Positions 22,227 through 30,062 of a stretch of DNA of 30,833 bases are shown piece by piece (positions within the stretch are counted from its first letter, which is position 1; each line of letters opens with the position of its first letter). The notes below the pieces were generated by a model that searched no databases, was not told the DNA's origin, and saw nothing but the letters and a program-made list of their open reading frames with translations. A program made the position numbers and the translations under genes. Origin of the DNA: a virus. The DNA lies in the IMG/VR virus record IMGVR_UViG_3300015366_000041, positions 1 to 30,833 of that record. One strand, 5' to 3'.

Positions 22227-22395
22227 GAGCTATCCTTAAACCCAAAGAATGATTATCGGGCGCGGGGCGCCCTATCCATTAACTCGCTTCCATGCTTACG
22301 CTCGTAGTCTACTCACAGGAAAATTTTTCTGTCAAATTGAGAGCCACTGGCGTGTCTCATTTCAGCCCATAGGCTCAAGGTATATCACGCCGTGC
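22227..22395. other. Non-coding stretch with several small hairpins
   Basis: No credible gene lies here; an in-frame upstream extension of the next gene from 22249 has unlikely protein content. A very stable hairpin has arms GGGCGC (22258-22263) and GCGCCC (22267-22272) with a GGG loop. A weaker A/T hairpin lies around 22315-22333. GAGCC (22341-22345) and GGCTC (22372-22376) form a longer-range pair. The region could be a small RNA, a leader or a replication origin. No tRNA cloverleaf was found. Confidence 0.4.
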
Positions 22396-22401
22396 TACAC
22401 T
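22393..22401 (+). promoter_or_regulatory. Extended -10 promoter giving a leaderless replication-operon mRNA
   Basis: TGCTACACT is an extended -10 (TG-n-TACACT). The ATG at 22408 begins 6 nt after the hexamer, where transcription should start. No Shine-Dalgarno precedes that ATG, as expected for a leaderless message common in Actinobacteria. No clear -35 is visible. This favours 22408 as the true start of the following gene over the longer frame opening at 22249. Confidence 0.5.
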
Positions 22402-22407
22402 TCACCC

Positions 22408-22611
22408 ATGACAACAGAAACAGAGACAACGATTAATCACAGGTCATTCTCGTCCTTCGCTTCGTGGGTACGATGTGGCAAAGCATGGCAATTAGAGCGC
22501 GGGTTTTCCGTGCAAACAGAACCAGCTTGGTGGTTCGTAGCAGGTTCAGCATTTCACACAGCAGTGGAGCGTTACTTACGTGAACTTCATGCCACGCAAA
22601 AAGAACAATGA
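22408..22611 (+). CDS. RecB/Cas4-like nuclease, N-terminal fragment
   Basis: A 67-residue protein that matches only the first part of a phage RecB/Cas4-like exonuclease. It has an S-F-S-S-F helix (13-17), a Cys at 23 (W-V-R-C-G-K-A-W-Q-L) and 'PAWWFVAGSAFHTAVERYL' (39-57) with the G-x3-H motif I (G46, H50). It stops at TGA 22609-22611 where the family would continue. The rest of the enzyme is encoded at 23201-23884, 589 bp further on, with three small genes between. The fragment has a clear promoter and intact frame, so it may be a working subunit supplying one iron-sulfur cysteine and motif I. It could instead be a decaying remnant. Confidence 0.7.
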   Translation: MTTETETTINHRSFSSFASWVRCGKAWQLERGFSVQTEPAWWFVAGSAFHTAVERYLRELHATQKEQ

Positions 22612-22825
22612 GCCAACTCCTATTAAGAATCTCGTGGTTCTTCATGGGGAGAAAGCGGATTACACGAGCCTTGGCCCGATCCGTGTATGCCCATGTGGGT
22701 CCGATACGTGGCATGTAAAAGTGAAGTTTGCTGAAGACGACACGATTGGTTTTTATTTCTTAGACATGCAATGTGTGCTATGCTCTTCTCTCGCACAAGC
22801 ACCTATGCCAGATTGGGGACACTAA
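22589..22825 (+). CDS. Small zinc-ribbon protein
   Basis: From ATG 22589 the product is 78 residues; a GTG at 22580 would add three. It overlaps the end of the RecB-like N-terminal fragment by 23 nt in another frame. Residues 34-36 (V-C-P-C-G-S) and 62-65 (Q-C-V-L-C) are two cysteine knuckles, typical of a zinc ribbon around a β-hairpin (WHVKVKFAEDDTIGFYFLDM, about 41-60). Proteins of this layout are common small genes in actinobacterial phages, with no established role. It is the first of three genes that separate the two nuclease parts. Confidence 0.6.
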   Translation: MPRKKNNEPTPIKNLVVLHGEKADYTSLGPIRVCPCGSDTWHVKVKFAEDDTIGFYFLDMQCVLCSSLAQAPMPDWGH

Positions 22826-23019
22826 TGATTGAAAAAACATATCCTATTCGTTGCTTTATTGAATCTTTTTTTGTAAAGATTGGTGAATACATTAGCCGCA
22901 TTGGGTGGCTAGCAACCAATGGTATTCCAGATGAATACTTTGAAGAAAAATTTTTTAATAAGTTTGGTTACCATGAGGATGACTGGATGAAAAGCCATTG
23001 GGAAGATGATGAGTGCTAA
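22825..23019 (+). CDS. Small hypothetical protein
   Basis: A 64-residue protein, TAATG-coupled to the zinc-ribbon gene. It is acidic and aromatic-rich, with 'IRCFIESFFVKIGEYISRIGWLATNG' in outline, then a tail rich in Glu, Asp, Phe and Trp (YHEDDWMKSHWEDDEC). It has no membrane segment or known motif. The strong acidity could make it a DNA mimic or inhibitor, but this is speculation. It lies inside the split nuclease locus. Confidence 0.5.
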   Translation: MIEKTYPIRCFIESFFVKIGEYISRIGWLATNGIPDEYFEEKFFNKFGYHEDDWMKSHWEDDEC

Positions 23020-23208
23020 ATGGGTAAGCAACGCGCAAAGATAATTACTAAGACCGCATTTGAAAAGGCTTTTGTTGAAGCTGAAATTCTTATGCGCAAG
23101 GCTCTTGGCGATATGATCGCTAAAGAGATACTTAAAGAGACTAATCCTGCAACTATTGTTGGGTTAAAAAAGGCGCAAGAAATAGTCATAGGACAAAAAG
23201 TTGAATAA
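23020..23208 (+). CDS. Small helical hypothetical protein
   Basis: A 62-residue protein starting directly after the previous stop. It is almost wholly helical and charged (TKTAFEKAFVEAEILMRKAL, then 'GDMIAKEILKETNPATIVGLKKAQEIVIGQ'). No motif identifies it. Its last codons overlap the TTG start of the nuclease C-terminal gene by 8 nt, so the two may be translationally coupled. It is the third gene in the split nuclease interval. Confidence 0.5.
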   Translation: MGKQRAKIITKTAFEKAFVEAEILMRKALGDMIAKEILKETNPATIVGLKKAQEIVIGQKVE

Positions 23209-23884
23209 TCTAAAACAGATTTGGGAAGAGTCATTCCTGTCTGAGATTGGTGCAGTTGAAAACAGGACTGGCACTAACCCAGTGGACTGGCGCGTTGGTG
23301 GACGTGAGTCTAAAGCCAACCCAGATAAAGAGAACAAGGTCTGGTGGGATACTAACGGCCTTGATATGTTTGAGAAGTTTGTTCAATCATTTACCAATAA
23401 CAATTGGAAAGTTTGGATTGCTCCAGATGGCACACCAGGAATTGAACTTGGCTTTGATCTAATGTTTGGCAAGGTAAGAATTAAAGCCTATGCCGATCTA
23501 GTTCTTGAGAATGAAGATGGTTCTATTACCGTGGTGGATCTGAAGACAGGCTCTTACACTCCTGACTCTGCTATGCAGCTTGGTGTTTACGCTTCCTGTA
23601 TTGAGATGCAGTACGGCATACGTCCAGCCTATGGTGCGTACTACAAGGCACGTAGCGCTGTGCTTGAGCCAAGTCCAGGACTAGACCTGTGGAGCATAGA
23701 AGTTCTTACAGAACTTTTTGCTCAGTTTGAACGGGGTATTCAGGCCGAAATTTTTTTACCCAATTTAAATATGATGTGTGGAAGTTGCGGGGTTAAAGAG
23801 TATTGCTATGCTTATGGCGGTAGCCTTGCTCACACGGTAGATCCACTAGCACAAATAAATTTACAAGCAAACAACAACAAATAA
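23201..23884 (+). CDS. RecB/Cas4-like nuclease, C-terminal catalytic part
   Basis: A 227-residue protein. An in-frame TAG at 23189-23191 leaves TTG 23201 as the only good start. It begins in mid-family: 'WEESFLSEI', then 'GTNPVDWRVGGRESKANPDK' (24-43) and 'WWDTNGLDMFEKFV'. It carries the PD-(D/E)XK core with D99 in 'KAYADLVLE', D113 and K115 in 'VVDLKTG', and Q126 in 'QLGVYA'. Three cysteines follow at 193, 196 and 202 (MMCGSCGVKEYC). With the cysteine in the separate N-terminal part these make the four ligands expected for a Cas4/AddB-type iron-sulfur cluster. Predicted role: 5'-to-3' or 3'-to-5' DNA exonuclease in recombination or repair. The split is discussed in the findings. Confidence 0.75.
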   Translation: MNNLKQIWEESFLSEIGAVENRTGTNPVDWRVGGRESKANPDKENKVWWDTNGLDMFEKFVQSFTNNNWKVWIAPDGTPGIELGFDLMFGKVRIKAYADLVLENEDGSITVVDLKTGSYTPDSAMQLGVYASCIEMQYGIRPAYGAYYKARSAVLEPSPGLDLWSIEVLTELFAQFERGIQAEIFLPNLNMMCGSCGVKEYCYAYGGSLAHTVDPLAQINLQANNNK

Positions 23885-23895
23885 GGAGAAAGAAA

Positions 23896-24291
23896 ATGGC
23901 AGCACCAGATAGCACAAAGCTCCAAGTCAACTTTAAGTTGGCTGATGGAACTTTGATTAACATATACGCAACAACACAGGCTGAACTTGAAGCAAACCTT
24001 CAATCAATCAGCGATCTAGCACAACTTATTCTCGCCACTGGCGGGGACTTAGGCAAGGGTGCAAACGTTGCTTATGCAACCAAGGCTCTTGGTGGCACAG
24101 TAGTTGACGAGCCAGTATGGGCAGCTAAGTCTGCACCCGCTGCTCCTGCTGGTTCAGTACCAACATGTGTACATGGACCAATGAAGCACGTTCCAGGTGG
24201 AGTATCCAAGAAGACAGGAAAGCCTTATGACGCTTTCTATTCTTGTGTAAGTTCTGACCGCGACAATCAGTGCAAAACTAAGTCTGCTTAG
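23896..24291 (+). CDS. Hypothetical protein with C-terminal zinc-finger-like motif
   Basis: A 131-residue protein with a strong AAGGAG site (23883-23888). Residues 1-50 form an α/β segment (KLQVNFKLADGTLINIYATT, then 'LEANLQSISDLAQLILATGG'). An Ala/Pro-rich linker follows, then 'CVHGPMKHVPGG ... KPYDAFYSCVSSDRDNQC' (about 91-127), with Cys/His ligands (C91, H93, C117, C126) suggesting a zinc finger. This layout is found in actinobacterial phages beside RecB-like exonucleases. A single-strand-binding or annealing partner is plausible but not shown. Confidence 0.6.
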   Translation: MAAPDSTKLQVNFKLADGTLINIYATTQAELEANLQSISDLAQLILATGGDLGKGANVAYATKALGGTVVDEPVWAAKSAPAAPAGSVPTCVHGPMKHVPGGVSKKTGKPYDAFYSCVSSDRDNQCKTKSA

Positions 24292-24295
24292 TTAA

Positions 24296-25132
24296 ATGTT
24301 ATCGCTGTCTCAGGCAGCAGTAAAAAGTAGTCACGACCATGCTATCCTGCCAGACCTTTTTCCAACATTGCAAAATGAAGGAATAAGGTTTAGGCGTGGT
24401 CAACTAACAATGATCGCTGGCGCTCCTAATGCTGGTAAATCATTGTTAGGACTACATTTTGCTGTTCATATGCAAGTACCAACACTGTATATCAGTGCTG
24501 ATACTGATGCTTATACGACTGCGATACGCGCTGCTGCCATGATTAGTGGCCATAGAGTAAGTACAGTTGAAGAAGGATTTGCTACACCAGATGGCGCTCA
24601 GTTTTATGCTGACCAACTGGCAAGTATCAAGCATCTACAATTTGACTTTGCCCCATCTCCCACTCTTGATGAAATTGATTTATCTATACAGGCTTATGCT
24701 GAAGCATATGGCGAATACCCTCACCTTTTAATTGTAGATAATGCTATGAACGTAGTATCTATGCACGAAAACGAATGGTCTGGACTACGCGAGATTGCCA
24801 AGGCTATGCACCATATAGCTAGAGAGACTGATGCAGCAGTATTCTTGCTACACCACACCAGTGAAGGTGAAGGTGCGCCAGATATGCCACCTAGTCGTAA
24901 GTCCATCCAAGGCAAGATCAGTCAATTGCCAGAGATGATTATCACCGTTGCTCTACTACCGTGGACAGGTGAGTTTAGAATTGCTGCGGTTAAGAATCGT
25001 TTTGCAAAGAACAGCGCGAGTGGCAAACAGTATGTATCATTATGGTCAGACGCTTCCCGAATGTCGGTCTGGAACTATAAACAGACAGAACAACACGATT
25101 GGCGACATGATCAAGAAGAAGAGGAATTTTAA
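24296..25132 (+). CDS. RecA/DnaB-family replicative ATPase (helicase-like)
   Basis: A 278-residue protein with a RecA-fold core: Walker A GAPNAGKS (42-49), 'LYISADTDAY' (64-73), Walker B 'LLIVDNA' (144-150), 'AVFLLHHTSEGEGA' (181-194, H-motif/sensor) and 'AVKNRFAKN' (231-239, basic finger). It resembles the C-terminal domain of DnaB-type SF4 helicases but lacks an N-terminal helical domain, so it may work as a ring of ATPase domains or as a loader. RadA/RecA-like recombination use is an alternative. It neighbours a resolvase and a primase, which supports replication. An acidic tail (EEEEF) ends the protein. Confidence 0.8.
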   Translation: MLSLSQAAVKSSHDHAILPDLFPTLQNEGIRFRRGQLTMIAGAPNAGKSLLGLHFAVHMQVPTLYISADTDAYTTAIRAAAMISGHRVSTVEEGFATPDGAQFYADQLASIKHLQFDFAPSPTLDEIDLSIQAYAEAYGEYPHLLIVDNAMNVVSMHENEWSGLREIAKAMHHIARETDAAVFLLHHTSEGEGAPDMPPSRKSIQGKISQLPEMIITVALLPWTGEFRIAAVKNRFAKNSASGKQYVSLWSDASRMSVWNYKQTEQHDWRHDQEEEEF

Positions 25133-25491
25133 TGAGTACATACGGTAAGCGTAAAGGCGCTCAATTTGAAACAGATGTTCTTCGGTGGTTCAGGGGAAGA
25201 CTACCGAAGGCAATAACAGAAAGGCTTGCTCGTGCGGGGGCAAATGACGAGGGTGATTTGGTTCTCATTGTCGCGGGCAAGCCCTATGTGTTTGAATTAA
25301 AAGCAAGAGCCAAGTTAGATCTACCTCAGTTCTGGCGTGAAGCTGTGCTTGAATCTCAGAATTATGCAAAGGCACGTGGACTTGAAGAAGCTCCACCATC
25401 CTACGTTATTGTTAAGCGTCGTATGGCTGGCATTGAAGATGCTTGGGTTATACAAACGCTAGACCAGTGGGCAATGATACATGACGAATAA
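25132..25491 (+). CDS. Hjc-like Holliday-junction resolvase (PD-(D/E)XK)
   Basis: A 119-residue protein, TAATG-coupled to the ATPase. Catalytic pattern: E13 in 'RKGAQFETDV', D42 in 'ANDEGDLVL', and E55 with K57 in 'YVFELKAR', typical of archaeal-type Hjc/RuvC-independent resolvases and small phage endonucleases. Basic residues at 21-34 (RGRLPKAITERLAR) could bind DNA. It ends with 'YVIVKRRMAGIEDAWVIQTL' in outline, a β strand pair usual for the fold. It would resolve branched DNA before packaging. Confidence 0.75.
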   Translation: MSTYGKRKGAQFETDVLRWFRGRLPKAITERLARAGANDEGDLVLIVAGKPYVFELKARAKLDLPQFWREAVLESQNYAKARGLEEAPPSYVIVKRRMAGIEDAWVIQTLDQWAMIHDE

Positions 25492-25852
25492 ACCAGATCT
25501 TGGCGCAGTGCTTGAAGCATATGGACTAACAGTTCAAGAGCGTTACGGTTGGGTTGCTTGTAAGTGTGTTGTCCATGAGGATAGCCATGCAAGTGCAGCA
25601 TATAATTTAGATAGACAGCAGTACAATTGTTTAGTGTGTCAACTACTAGGTGATGTTTATGATCTAGTAGCTCGTAAGGAAGACCTAAAGGAGTTTAAAG
25701 ATGTTAAACGCAGAGCAGAAAGCCTCGCTAACGGAAGCAGCAGACAGGTACGCAGACCGCATAAGTCCGCTGGCTCTGTCTTACCTACAGGCTCGCGGCA
25801 TAAGCCAACAGGTGGCAAATTCTTACCGTCTTGGAAGCGTCGTGGAGCCTAG
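25481..25852 (+). CDS. DNA primase zinc-binding part (CHC2-like)
   Basis: A 123-residue protein that overlaps the resolvase end by 11 nt. Residues 22-60 match a DnaG zinc-binding domain: C29-x2-H32 in 'CKCVVHEDSHASAAYN', then C50-x2-C53 in 'QYNCLVCQLLGDVYDLV'. The remainder (about 75-123) is basic and lacks a fold. Its last 152 nt overlap the TOPRIM gene in another frame, so that part may be constrained by the overlap rather than by its own function. It would recognise the template for primer synthesis, acting with the TOPRIM part. Confidence 0.7.
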   Translation: MTNKPDLGAVLEAYGLTVQERYGWVACKCVVHEDSHASAAYNLDRQQYNCLVCQLLGDVYDLVARKEDLKEFKDVKRRAESLANGSSRQVRRPHKSAGSVLPTGSRHKPTGGKFLPSWKRRGA

Positions 25853-26336
25853 CGTTGGTCACGAGCATGCAGTGGGGATGCTTAGTATTCCTTACCTTAC
25901 TCCTTCTGGCGTAGTTGGAATAAAGTTTCGCCGCTTAGATGACGGCACACCAAAGTACCTATGGCCCACAGGTCAGAAGATTGGATTGTTTAATGTTCAA
26001 GATCTACATAAATCCTCAGACACAATCGCGATCTGTGAAGGGGAAATTGACACGATTGTTTTATCTGGTTGCGTTGGTATTCCTGCTGTTGGGGTTGCTG
26101 GCGTATCTCAATGGAAAGCCCACTTTCCGAAACTTTTTGAACCGTATACGAGAGTCTTAATCTTTGCTGACAATGATATAAAAGATGATGGTCGCAACCC
26201 AGGACAGGAATTAGCCAAGCGGATTAAGGAAGACTTGCCAGCAGCAATTATTGTCGGATTACCAGGCAATCAGGACGTTAATGATCTATACTTAGCGCAT
26301 GGCAAAGACTGGTTTGATGAGCGACTAGCGGCATGA
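25701..26336 (+). CDS. DNA primase TOPRIM part
   Basis: A 211-residue protein. Its own AAGGAG site (25688-25693) and ATG lie inside the zinc-domain gene, and an in-frame TAA at 25686-25688 rules out an upstream extension. Residues 27-70 hold 'LSYLQARGISQQVANSYRLG', usual for the primase RNA-polymerase subdomain. TOPRIM residues follow: E113-G-E115 in 'AICEGEIDTIV' and D157-N-D159 in 'LIFADNDIKDDG', with a last piece 'VNDLY'. With the zinc part it would synthesise primers. The two frames differ by +1. The good ribosome-binding site argues for separate subunits, not frameshifting. Confidence 0.75.
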   Translation: MLNAEQKASLTEAADRYADRISPLALSYLQARGISQQVANSYRLGSVVEPSVGHEHAVGMLSIPYLTPSGVVGIKFRRLDDGTPKYLWPTGQKIGLFNVQDLHKSSDTIAICEGEIDTIVLSGCVGIPAVGVAGVSQWKAHFPKLFEPYTRVLIFADNDIKDDGRNPGQELAKRIKEDLPAAIIVGLPGNQDVNDLYLAHGKDWFDERLAA

Positions 26337-26355: not shown

Positions 26356-26445
26356 ATGGCAGATTTCTGCCCATCGTGCAGATTGCCAGTTATCAAAGGC
26401 ACTCGTTTTTGTCCAAGATGTAATACACAGATAGGCGCAAAATGA
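26356..26445 (+). CDS. 29-residue zinc-ribbon microprotein
   Basis: A 29-residue gene between the primase and the Mom-like gene. It contains two C-P-x-C knuckles: 'DFCPSCRLPVIKG' and 'RFCPRCNTQ', spaced as in a minimal zinc ribbon (C5, C8, C19, C22). Its TGA overlaps the next ATG (ATGA). A different frame from 26333 gives 33 residues without motif and is rejected. There is no good ribosome-binding site, so re-initiation after the primase stop 20 nt upstream is likely. It probably binds DNA or a partner; function is unknown. Confidence 0.6.
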   Translation: MADFCPSCRLPVIKGTRFCPRCNTQIGAK

Positions 26446-27071
26446 GTAATTACTGGGTTGATAAAATTCCATCAAAATTGGGCAAAGAATTTGTAAAAAC
26501 TTATCATTATTCACACGGTATTCACAACGGACCAATGACTTATGGGATGTTTGACGGCTTGGATTTGGTTGGGGTGTGTGCATTTGCAAACCCTTGTAGT
26601 GAAGCGGTATGTGCAAGCGTATTTGGTTTTGAGCAGAAAAGATCAGTTACCGAATTGCACCGCCTTGTTTTGTTAGATGAGGTGCCTAAAAATAGTGAAT
26701 CTTGGTTTATAGTTCGGGCATTAAAAGCACTTAAAAAAGATCGCCCTAACTACAATGCAGTTTTATCTTTTGCTGATGCAACTGAAGGGCATTTGGGAAC
26801 GATTTACCAAGCAACAAATGCTATTTACACAGGTACTTCAGGCAAAGCAACATTTTATTTAGATCAAAATGGCAGACTCAGGCACCCACGCCAAAATGGT
26901 GTGAACATAAAACCTGCTGATGCAAAAGAAATGGGCTGGCAACCAGTCAAACGCGAAGGCAAGCATAGGTATTTATATTTACTGGCTAATGGCAAGAACC
27001 ATAAAAAGACATTATTAAAGCAATTGCAGTTAGAAAGTAAGCCGTATCCAAAAGGGGATTTGCCATTATGA
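26442..27071 (+). CDS. Mom-like DNA-modification acyltransferase
   Basis: A 209-residue protein that resembles the phage Mu Mom family (GNAT-like acyltransferases that modify adenine). Supporting motifs: 'KTYHYSHGIHNG' (19-30), 'VGVCAFANP' (43-51), 'ELHRLVLLDEVPKNSES' (71-87), 'AVLSFADATEGHLGTIYQAT' (106-125), 'YTGTSG' (129-134), 'RLRHPR' (145-150) and 'KHRYLYLL' (174-181). In Mu, Mom adds a carbamoylmethyl group to adenine N6 and protects DNA from restriction. The same role is inferred here. The neighbours, a zinc microprotein, an Ntn hydrolase and an Nmad1-like gene, fit a modification island. Confidence 0.8.
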   Translation: MSNYWVDKIPSKLGKEFVKTYHYSHGIHNGPMTYGMFDGLDLVGVCAFANPCSEAVCASVFGFEQKRSVTELHRLVLLDEVPKNSESWFIVRALKALKKDRPNYNAVLSFADATEGHLGTIYQATNAIYTGTSGKATFYLDQNGRLRHPRQNGVNIKPADAKEMGWQPVKREGKHRYLYLLANGKNHKKTLLKQLQLESKPYPKGDLPL

Positions 27072-27148
27072 AAATAGAACTTGAAGGTTTGTGTTATGCA
27101 AATCAATATCTCACCGATGGCTACCTGGCTAACGCGGCAATCAATTGA
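27068..27148 (+). CDS. Possible 26-residue microprotein or translational bridge
   Basis: ATG 27068 overlaps the Mom-like stop (ATGA). The frame runs to TGA 27146-27148 and would encode 26 residues (starts MKIELEGLCY). No motif is visible. Its main use may be to carry ribosomes across to the Ntn hydrolase gene 13 nt downstream. A coding role is uncertain. Confidence 0.3.
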   Translation: MKIELEGLCYANQYLTDGYLANAAIN

Positions 27149-27161
27149 GGGAGCAACTAAC

Positions 27162-27731
27162 ATGACAACTATTGCCTGCATTGAAGGACCCGAATGGGTA
27201 ATGATCGGGGCAGACTCGCAATCATCTAGTGAAGATGGATTTTCAATCAACATTCCTAACGGAAAAATTTTTAGAAATAATAGCGTTGTTTTTGCTATGG
27301 CAGGATCAGTGCGTGGCATTAATATCCTTGAACATGATTATGTGCCACCGCAGGTTAGCGGCAAGGACATAGATAAATACGTTACTCGTCAACTTATCCC
27401 ATCCATTCGCAAGTCCTTCATGGAAGCGGGTTATGAGTTTAGCAAGGCTGAAGCAGCCGTTGAGCATGACAACATTATTATCGTAGTAGTTAAGGGCAAG
27501 GTCTATTGCATCAATGAGGACTACTCATGGGAGCGTAGCGTAGACAACATGTATGTGGCTGGCAGTGGTGAGAAGTTTGCTCTTGGCGCTATGACAGCTC
27601 TTGCTGGTGGCTTGGTAGATGATCCTGCAAAAGCCCGTAAAATAGTCACAAAAGCCTTACAAATCGCTAGTAAATACGATGCTTATACAGGTGGCAAGAT
27701 CACTGTATCTTTAATTCAGGAAAGCAAATGA
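27162..27731 (+). CDS. Proteasome β-like Ntn hydrolase
   Basis: From ATG 27162 (GAGGGAG site at 27147-27153), 189 residues. A longer frame to 27081 is not favoured, because 27162 has the site and puts a Thr at the mature N-terminus. Motifs: M-T2-T3-I-A at the start, D18 in 'MIGADSQ', K35 in 'NGKIFR', G48 in 'AMAGSV', 'VAGSGEKFALGAMTAL' (132-147) and D173 in 'YDAYTGGKI'. These match the N-terminal Thr, Asp17, Lys33, Gly47, Ser129 region and Asp166 of proteasome β/HslV-type peptidases. Self-compartmentalising proteolysis is likely. An Anbu/HslV-like ring is a possibility. Its place in a DNA-modification operon is unusual. Confidence 0.75.
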   Translation: MTTIACIEGPEWVMIGADSQSSSEDGFSINIPNGKIFRNNSVVFAMAGSVRGINILEHDYVPPQVSGKDIDKYVTRQLIPSIRKSFMEAGYEFSKAEAAVEHDNIIIVVVKGKVYCINEDYSWERSVDNMYVAGSGEKFALGAMTALAGGLVDDPAKARKIVTKALQIASKYDAYTGGKITVSLIQESK

Positions 27732-28975: not shown

Positions 28976-29433
28976 AAGTAAAACTTACTATTGCTGATGT
29001 AACCTATGCAACGATTGAAGCAGTAGAGCGTTACAACTTCAACCGTGATATGGGTAACGATTCGTCTAAGGTAAGTAAGACATGGCCAGAAGCTATTGCT
29101 CGTGAGATTAATGGCGTAATTGCTGAGATAGCAGTAGCCAGGTGGAAAGATAAATACCCAATTACTCTCTTTGCTGATCGCAAGAGTGGAGATGTGGGCG
29201 AGTTTGAAGTGCGTTCAACTGCCTATTCTTATGGCAAGCTCTTGTTCCAGTCAGATGATAATAAGAACCGCAGATACTTTTTTGTGACAGTAGATGGGCA
29301 TTACAAGGCTAATATCGTAGGCTGGCTCTGGGGCTGGGAAGGCATACAGGATCAGTTCTGGGATACAAACATGCCAGTGCCGTGCTATGCAGTACCGCAA
29401 AGTCTTCTCCACGATCCAGAGGAATTAGATTGA
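28963..29433 (+). CDS. Possible PD-(D/E)XK-fold protein
   Basis: A 156-residue protein overlapping the phosphoesterase end by 13 nt. A helix with E55 (INGVIAEIAVARW) is followed by 'ADRKSGDVGEFEVRSTAYSY' (71-90). There D77 and E82-V-R84 could be the D...ExR/K signature with Arg in place of Lys. Then β strands run 'RRYFFVTVDG' and 'ANIVGWLWGWEG' (116-127). I have seen this layout in unassigned phage genes, but cannot name a family. A structure-specific nuclease or a DNA-ligand protein is possible. Treat the fold call as tentative. Confidence 0.5.
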   Translation: MALVEVKLTIADVTYATIEAVERYNFNRDMGNDSSKVSKTWPEAIAREINGVIAEIAVARWKDKYPITLFADRKSGDVGEFEVRSTAYSYGKLLFQSDDNKNRRYFFVTVDGHYKANIVGWLWGWEGIQDQFWDTNMPVPCYAVPQSLLHDPEELD

Positions 29434-30062
29434 CTTGGTTAGATGAAGCGCAAGAAGTTGCACACACGGTTGCAAGGCAAGTCCACCGAAAATACACAAC
29501 TTACTTTGATGCAAGCGATGTTAGGAATGAACTTATTGTCTGGGTCTTACGGCGCGAGACGAAGGTCAAGGAATGGCTTGAGCATGATAAAGATACTGAA
29601 GATTATCGTGTTGGTATTAGGATGTTGGCCAAAACTCTTCAACGCCATGCGGATAAGTATTGTCGCAGAGCTAAAGCGCAAGCGGCAGGCTATGAAGTAA
29701 GAGATGAGATATTCTACAACGCTGAAGTATTAGAGCAACTGCTCCCGTTTGTCTGGAAAGACACTGTGCCTACTACCAATCCCACTGGCGAGAAGGTAAG
29801 TGGTGGTGGCAATCCCGCTGAAGGCGGTAACTATATCATCTCACTATTTGATGTGCGTAAGGCTAAGAATAAACTAGAACCTGACGATCAACTATTGCTC
29901 CATATGAAATATGTAGAAGCTATGACTTATGACCAGATTGCTGAAAGTCTGGTAATATCCAAGTCATCAGCAGAGCGCAAGGTTAAGGCTGCTTTACGCA
30001 GGCTTATTAAACAGTTAGGCGGAGAAGATCCTTGGGTAAGGAAGAAAAGGGTAGAAGATTAG
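29430..30062 (+). CDS. Sigma-factor-like HTH protein
   Basis: From TTG 29430, which overlaps the previous TGA and has an AGAGGA site 8 nt before it, 210 residues. A longer frame from 29382 is disfavoured. The N-terminal half is helical and basic (ARQVHRKYTTYF, then 'ASDVRNELIVWVLRR', then 'HADKYCRRAKAQA'). Residues 150-197 form a sigma region-4-like HTH ('LEPDDQLLLHMKYVEAMTYD', then 'IAESLVISKSSAERKVKAAL' and 'RRLIKQLGG'). This is the only sigma/HTH-type regulator seen, so it may switch transcription of late genes. Direct DNA binding as a repressor is an alternative. Confidence 0.7.
   Translation: MTWLDEAQEVAHTVARQVHRKYTTYFDASDVRNELIVWVLRRETKVKEWLEHDKDTEDYRVGIRMLAKTLQRHADKYCRRAKAQAAGYEVRDEIFYNAEVLEQLLPFVWKDTVPTTNPTGEKVSGGGNPAEGGNYIISLFDVRKAKNKLEPDDQLLLHMKYVEAMTYDQIAESLVISKSSAERKVKAALRRLIKQLGGEDPWVRKKRVED

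Follow-up and report, generated by a model that had tools for sequence, protein, structure and literature searches.

The window, by which we mean the whole stretch of 30,833 nucleotides of the virus record IMGVR_UViG_3300015366_000041 that was analysed here, holds an exonuclease of the Cas4/RecB type whose two parts lie in separate genes, called exoN and exoC, with three small genes between them. The following features were annotated, with positions counted from the first letter of the window:

22386..22407, + strand: extended -10-like element TGCTACACT, recognised from the sequence, ending 6 nt 5' of the exoN start codon
22408..22611, + strand: exoN, putative N-terminal subunit of the Cas4/RecB-type exonuclease, 67 aa, ATG to TGA, matching phrog_1870 at 13-67 (E 6e-10)
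22580..22825, + strand: zinc-ribbon gene, 78-81 aa, CxCG...CxxC, starting at GTG 22580 or ATG 22589 and overlapping the end of exoN
22825..23019, + strand: gene of a small acidic protein, 64 aa, lineage-specific (family FAM5, 8 loci, closest relatives only)
23020..23208, + strand: gene of a small, presumably helical protein, 62 aa (family FAM1, 63 loci), with an 8-nt overlap with the exoC start
23189..23200, + strand: Shine-Dalgarno-like AGGA, recognised from the sequence, 7 nt 5' of the exoC TTG
23201..23884, + strand: exoC, putative C-terminal subunit, 227 aa, TTG to TAA, matching phrog_1870 at 77-293 (E 4e-38)
23896..24291, + strand: mycobacteriophage L5 gp49-like protein, the next gene of the module (Pfam: PF25690, E 8e-13)
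24296..25132, + strand: DnaB-like helicase (phrog_243, E 2e-66)
25132-25491: RusA-like resolvase gene (phrog_244, E 8e-20)

The two complementary parts are 589 nt apart, exactly where a preliminary description of this DNA, made from the sequence alone, had placed them. As stated there, neither half is interrupted by an internal stop codon, and the three genes in between are tightly joined to both parts, each touching or overlapping its neighbour. These three open reading frames (ORFs) are real reading frames, and the zinc-ribbon and the helical one are kept in relatives. The DnaB-like and RusA-like genes which follow exoC provide a replication and recombination context. An ORF similar to the L5 gp49-like one is also located 3' of the exonuclease in the phage LanE43AprF5 and in L116, a relative with an intact exonuclease.

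Besides these genes, the primase is apparently also present in two ORFs of the window (25481-25852 and 25701-26336), which overlap in different frames; in this candidate a DnaG-type zinc-binding domain (Pfam: PF01807) is found on one ORF and a Toprim domain (Pfam: PF13362) on the other. Further along the window we found a Mom-like DNA modification protein (26442-27071; Pfam: PF25680, E 2e-40), a homologue of the Proteasome/HslV-type peptidases (27081-27731; Pfam: PF00227, E 8e-6; phrog_1040, E 5e-31) and a sigma-70-like factor (29382-30062; Pfam: PF08281, E 7e-8). A sigma-70 factor has also been reported for isolated Planktophila phages (PMC10202952).

ExoN and ExoC match complementary stretches of one profile. 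This holds for phrog_1870 and for the Pfam family PDDEXK_1, in which ExoN covers positions 3-54 with an E-value of 0.0055, below the Pfam cut-off, and ExoC covers positions 113-246 with an E-value of 4e-11. With phrog_1870 matched by each of them, the parts belong to the same family and not to two different ones. The RecB motifs GxxxH, D, DxK and QxxxY are all present and are shared out between the two proteins: ExoN carries Cys23 and motif I (G46xxxH50), and D99, D113xK115, Q126xxxY130 and Cys193/196/202 are located on ExoC, which confirms the assignment of residues made previously. Twelve positions (S15, C23, G46, H50, D99, D113, K115, Q126, Y130, C193, C196 and C202) are invariant: 189 of 189 split enzymes share them, and so do 24 of 24 intact ones, the four cysteines included. 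The pattern of one N-terminal and three C-terminal cysteines is kept across two polypeptides in all 189.

The RecB-like fold was found in the structure models of both the intact relative L116 and ExoC alone. The AlphaFold2 model of L116 (pLDDT 93.4) is similar to AdnA (Z 17.4 over 226 residues), ACE1 (16.6), AddB (14.9), Dna2 (13.6) and a type I-C Cas4 (13.6). ExoC alone (pLDDT 86.9) reaches a Z of 10.1 over 174 residues with AdnA; it matches the same structures less well, as would be expected of a fold that lacks a piece. Aligning the halves with intact relatives, a check that had been proposed for the preliminary description, showed that they join without a gap and that nothing is lost. In every one of the 189 enzymes measured, the N-half stops 10-25 residues past GxxxH. 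On the L116 model this places the cut in the loop 60-65, which links the helix of motif I (43-59) to the one after it (66-78). L116 also has, at about 400-460 and upstream of its intact exonuclease gene, a CT-type simple repeat that is read in ORFs as SLSLSL or RERERE.

The relatives of the locus were collected from exoC, profile and follow-up searches, which gave 233 loci (some contigs were fetched twice) and, after clustering at 93%, 90 representatives. The enzyme is split at the same homologous point in 195 of these 233 loci, so that the split is not a matter of single genomes; 19 loci are intact and 19 undecidable, the latter mostly because of contig ends and including two only weakly related loci (L149 and L150). 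The exoC search of viral contigs detected 76 relatives with 47-100% identity, and the N-half is present in a separate frame wherever the contig reaches far enough. A later search from an intact relative added 24 split and 14 intact loci (a count that includes locus L239), and a scan of genome contigs gave two relatives, both intact. In an independent search with the N-half, a separate-frame C-half was found in 79 of 80 loci, the last of which ends too soon, and none of the 79 testable loci had an orphan N-half.

Intact forms are found in cultured Mycobacterium, Gordonia, Rhodococcus and Cutibacterium phages, at two loci of bacterial genomes and in a few metagenomic clades. LanE43AprF5 (OX376641) and LanE43AprE7 (OX376640), two isolated phages which are lytic on 'Ca. 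Planktophila' LanE-43 (PMC10202952), have the split and no insert. Assembly error was considered as a source of the split and is ruled out, since many independent samples as well as isolated phages show it. The viruses with the split enzyme are aquatic, infect bacteria and form a large group that is mostly uncultured.

In trees of the joined halves the outgroups are intact, split enzymes are found all across the tree of the group, and the distribution of split and intact enzymes needs two or three changes. Uniting all split enzymes in one clade is not rejected by the AU test (p 0.436 and 0.491; the tree built last omits the long-branch rows L080, L100, L144 and L238). One fission would be the simplest account of this pattern. 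The intact L116 group sits inside or beside the split group and may be either its sister or a re-fusion, both of which fit the trees.

The boundary between the halves holds different genes in different lineages. The zinc-ribbon family (FAM0) was detected in 76 loci with C34, C36, C62 and C65 invariant, and the helical family has 12 invariant columns. Other families take the slot of the acidic gene in other lineages, where the boundary as a whole is occupied by at least five other gene families, among them FAM4, FAM7 with or without FAM8, and FAM15-18 as single cases. A possible kinship of FAM1 with FAM4, the other family of helical inserts, has a probability of 38% over 26 columns in hhalign. 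The zinc-ribbon protein of the window has no Pfam match, one member of its family reaches a treble-clef model with an E-value of 0.13, and no credible relative was found in the PDB (best E 0.27). None of the three inserts of the window has a Pfam or PHROG match, and no homing endonuclease was recognised among them; the inserts of other lineages were inspected by reading, and in the no-insert forms no gene separates the halves. In the loci L352-L358, at about 1797-2198, the same zinc ribbon makes up the C-terminal portion of a longer protein, whose N-terminus is hydrophobic and whose gene lies downstream of a proteasome-like ORF.

One of the two origins considered in the preliminary description was the insertion of an accessory cassette that made the enzyme two-subunit. 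This origin is not supported, in view of the many relatives, LanE43AprF5 and LanE43AprE7 among them, in which the halves overlap and no gene lies between. About 100 further loci show such a direct overlap, of 1-20 nt. Since the halves overlap without an insert, and several of these genomes have the zinc ribbon at another place, the split is independent of the cassette. A stronger form of this account, in which the cassette created the split and a multi-subunit nuclease needs the zinc-ribbon and helical proteins as additional subunits, is unlikely, even though the zinc ribbon is present and conserved in most of the window's clade and the helical gene is nearly always there. Against it stand the relatives that are split without an insert, including the three loci L093-L095, which group with the zinc-ribbon clade in the tree; the zinc ribbon was therefore either gained within this group or lost from these three. 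Moreover, the clade of L059-L072 lacks the helical gene, the zinc ribbon is also located elsewhere in a phage with an intact exonuclease, and unrelated genes (FAM4, FAM7/8, FAM15, FAM16, FAM17 and FAM18) are found in the same boundary. The zinc-ribbon, acidic and helical genes thus most likely moved later into a boundary that was already there, as one of several such settlements, and the cassette may act as a later-acquired helper.

A start codon of exoC was found in all 195 split loci, chosen as ATG in 144, GTG in 26 and TTG in 25; the choice was scripted and some of these starts are imperfect, as in the L104 type, where an upstream in-frame ATG overlapping the N-half stop (TAATG) is likelier, with the class unchanged. 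The TTG start stated earlier for the C-terminal part is found in the window genome, but is a local choice only. Shine-Dalgarno-like tetramers precede exoC in 43 of 75 representatives (57%) versus a background of 15% (p 4e-17). The extended -10-like element directly upstream of exoN was found in 27 of 27 representatives of the zinc-ribbon clade, compared with 0.7% at random positions, and in only 7 of the 48 other representatives. The element suggests that exoN begins a leaderless early transcript in the zinc-ribbon clade.

The separate starts also bear on the idea that the halves are joined again at the RNA or protein level, by a self-splicing intron or, in the overlapping forms, by programmed ribosomal frameshifting, which we regard as very unlikely. 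Some forms overlap by just 4-14 nt, and there a slip could fuse the frames. However, the overlapping forms use two relative frames, +1 in 88 loci and +2 in at least 12, which one frameshift mechanism cannot serve, and inserts of 186-955 nt exclude slipping. As for an intron, the Rfam search of positions 22300-23500 (E up to 5) found no group I or group II core between the halves; in 12 loci the gap of 194 nt is filled by a zinc-ribbon ORF of 216 nt that overlaps both neighbours, and thus there is no room for an intron core. The start codon of exoC's own in every split locus and the excess of Shine-Dalgarno-like tetramers speak against both versions. One sub-threshold Rfam match in the interval, to PrfA (E 3.4), was disregarded.

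To compare selection on both parts, as had been suggested, we calculated dN/dS by the Nei-Gojobori method for pairs with a dS of 0.05-1.2 and with overlaps trimmed. The median is 0.21 for exoN and 0.10 for exoC (0.16 and 0.11 in the no-insert group), 0.15 for the zinc ribbon and 0.11 for the helical gene. These low values indicate that both halves are under purifying selection; relaxed selection did not appear in either.

The other origin proposed at first was decay, that is, a remnant broken by insertion with both pieces drifting. Pseudogenes often look like such split genes and the TTG start of the window genome is weak-looking, but the reading is highly improbable in view of the twelve invariant positions of the 189 split enzymes, the low dN/dS of both halves, the spread of the split form across the whole tree, its occurrence in isolated lytic phages (PMC10202952), the lack of orphan N-halves in the testable loci and the finding of the two halves, but of no other nuclease of this family, in the 8 records searched with PDDEXK_1. 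Just as improbable is that the halves took separate new functions and merely stay neighbours. They are separate genes with their own starts and a variable distance, and the motifs would also be conserved if each half had been selected for a new role of its own. Such roles, however, would need every motif residue of both halves to be kept, motif I and Cys23 have no evident use outside the whole fold and yet are invariant together with their partners, and in the N-half search the halves were never found apart.

Taken together, ExoN and ExoC are very probably the two subunits of one PD-(D/E)XK 'iron-staple' exonuclease of the Cas4/AddB/AdnA/Dna2 class. The invariant motifs, the low dN/dS and the absence of orphan halves support what the preliminary description considered unusual, a functional two-subunit enzyme with its cysteines on different polypeptides, rather than a relic. 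An ancestral single gene would have undergone one cut, in the loop that follows the motif I helix (GxxxH) and leads to the next one, and the lineage would since have kept two separately translated chains. ExoN would probably be made first, from the leaderless transcript, and ExoC from its own start codon, either by coupling or from its own ribosome site. The small subunit would contribute motif I and one cysteine and the large one D, DxK, QxxxY and three cysteines, and the conservation of both suggests that the chains reassemble into the standard fold of an active enzyme. The embedded zinc-ribbon, acidic and helical genes would have settled there later.

The Cas4 relatives that consist of a single chain use one N-terminal and three C-terminal cysteines to bind a [4Fe-4S] or [2Fe-2S] cluster, for which a role as a staple of the nuclease domain has been proposed (PMC4176176). 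If the fold is the same as in these relatives, the cluster of the split enzyme would be ligated by both chains, 1+3, and would hold them together. Loss of the cluster abolished the activity of one Cas4 protein, and cysteine mutants of two others stay nuclease-active (PMC4176176); the cluster may therefore be structural and not essential. The enzyme would presumably serve phage replication and recombination by resecting DNA ends, with its genes next to the DnaB and RusA-like ones.

The closest known systems are the intact Cas4/RecB-type exonucleases of cultured actinophages (phrog_1870 and phrog_69), for example Gordonia phage Soups gp81, Rhodococcus phage RER2 Orf49 and Mycobacterium phage TipsytheTRex gp73. 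They share family, motifs and cysteines with exoN/exoC, and in Mycobacterium and Gordonia phages they are located a few genes upstream of DnaB, as in the window, but they are single polypeptides, whereas the enzyme of the window is encoded by two genes cut past motif I. The 'iron-staple' nucleases AdnA, AddB, Dna2 and Cas4 (6ppu, 9np6, 4cei, 5eax, 4ic1 and 4r5q) and ACE1 (9iac) share the fold (Z 13-17 versus the intact relative). The catalytic motifs and the pattern of one N-terminal and three C-terminal cysteines (as in PMC4176176) are also the same. In characterised Cas4 proteins, however, the cysteines are on one chain, and in exoN/exoC on two.

Phage enzymes in pieces are known from the Aeh1 NrdA, the T4 topoisomerase gp39/gp60 and the gene 43A/43B DNA polymerase, and Aeh1 NrdA and the 43A/43B polymerase reassemble to active enzymes (PMC2988022). 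All three resemble exoN/exoC in that a replication or nucleotide enzyme is present as two polypeptides, and the gene 43 case may likewise be a split that was later invaded by another gene (PMC2988022). As in such genes in pieces, one ancestral gene is found here as two polypeptides which are translated separately and keep its order, judging from the gap-free join, the separate starts and the intact outgroups. The splits of Aeh1 NrdA, gp39/gp60 and 43A/43B are marked by homing endonucleases or an untranslated spacer, whereas a tie to a homing endonuclease, which is typical though not strictly defining of this kind of enzyme, was not recognised in exoN/exoC. Their split is common to a large divergent group, often as a plain overlap, and, unlike in these three examples, its boundary holds several unrelated families of small genes.

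We found no split Cas4-like phage exonuclease and no Fe-S nuclease across two polypeptides in the literature searched, which is weak evidence of novelty. As far as this literature shows, the following are new among phage enzymes in pieces: the enzyme class, a split that became fixed in a large and divergent group with no homing endonuclease recognised, a set of Fe-S ligands shared out between two chains, and a boundary that holds several different gene families.

The annotation of many uncultured actinophages may miss exoN with its 67 aa, and may label exoC as a truncated nuclease. We think it somewhat more probable than not that this lineage of aquatic actinophages has an obligate heterodimeric nuclease in which one cysteine of a subunit of ~65 residues and three of a subunit of ~210 residues ligate the Fe-S cluster, with the cluster as an assembling clip and the boundary as a landing site for accessory genes. 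If this is true, the assembly of the heterodimer would depend on iron or redox state. The Fe-S cluster of the Cas4/AddB/Dna2 type is thought to staple both ends of one chain, and a two-chain staple enzyme would allow a direct test of whether the cluster holds the fold together and whether it controls activity. Furthermore, a core phage enzyme would here survive as two genes through large sequence divergence, with the internal boundary of an enzyme used for insertions like any other gene boundary.
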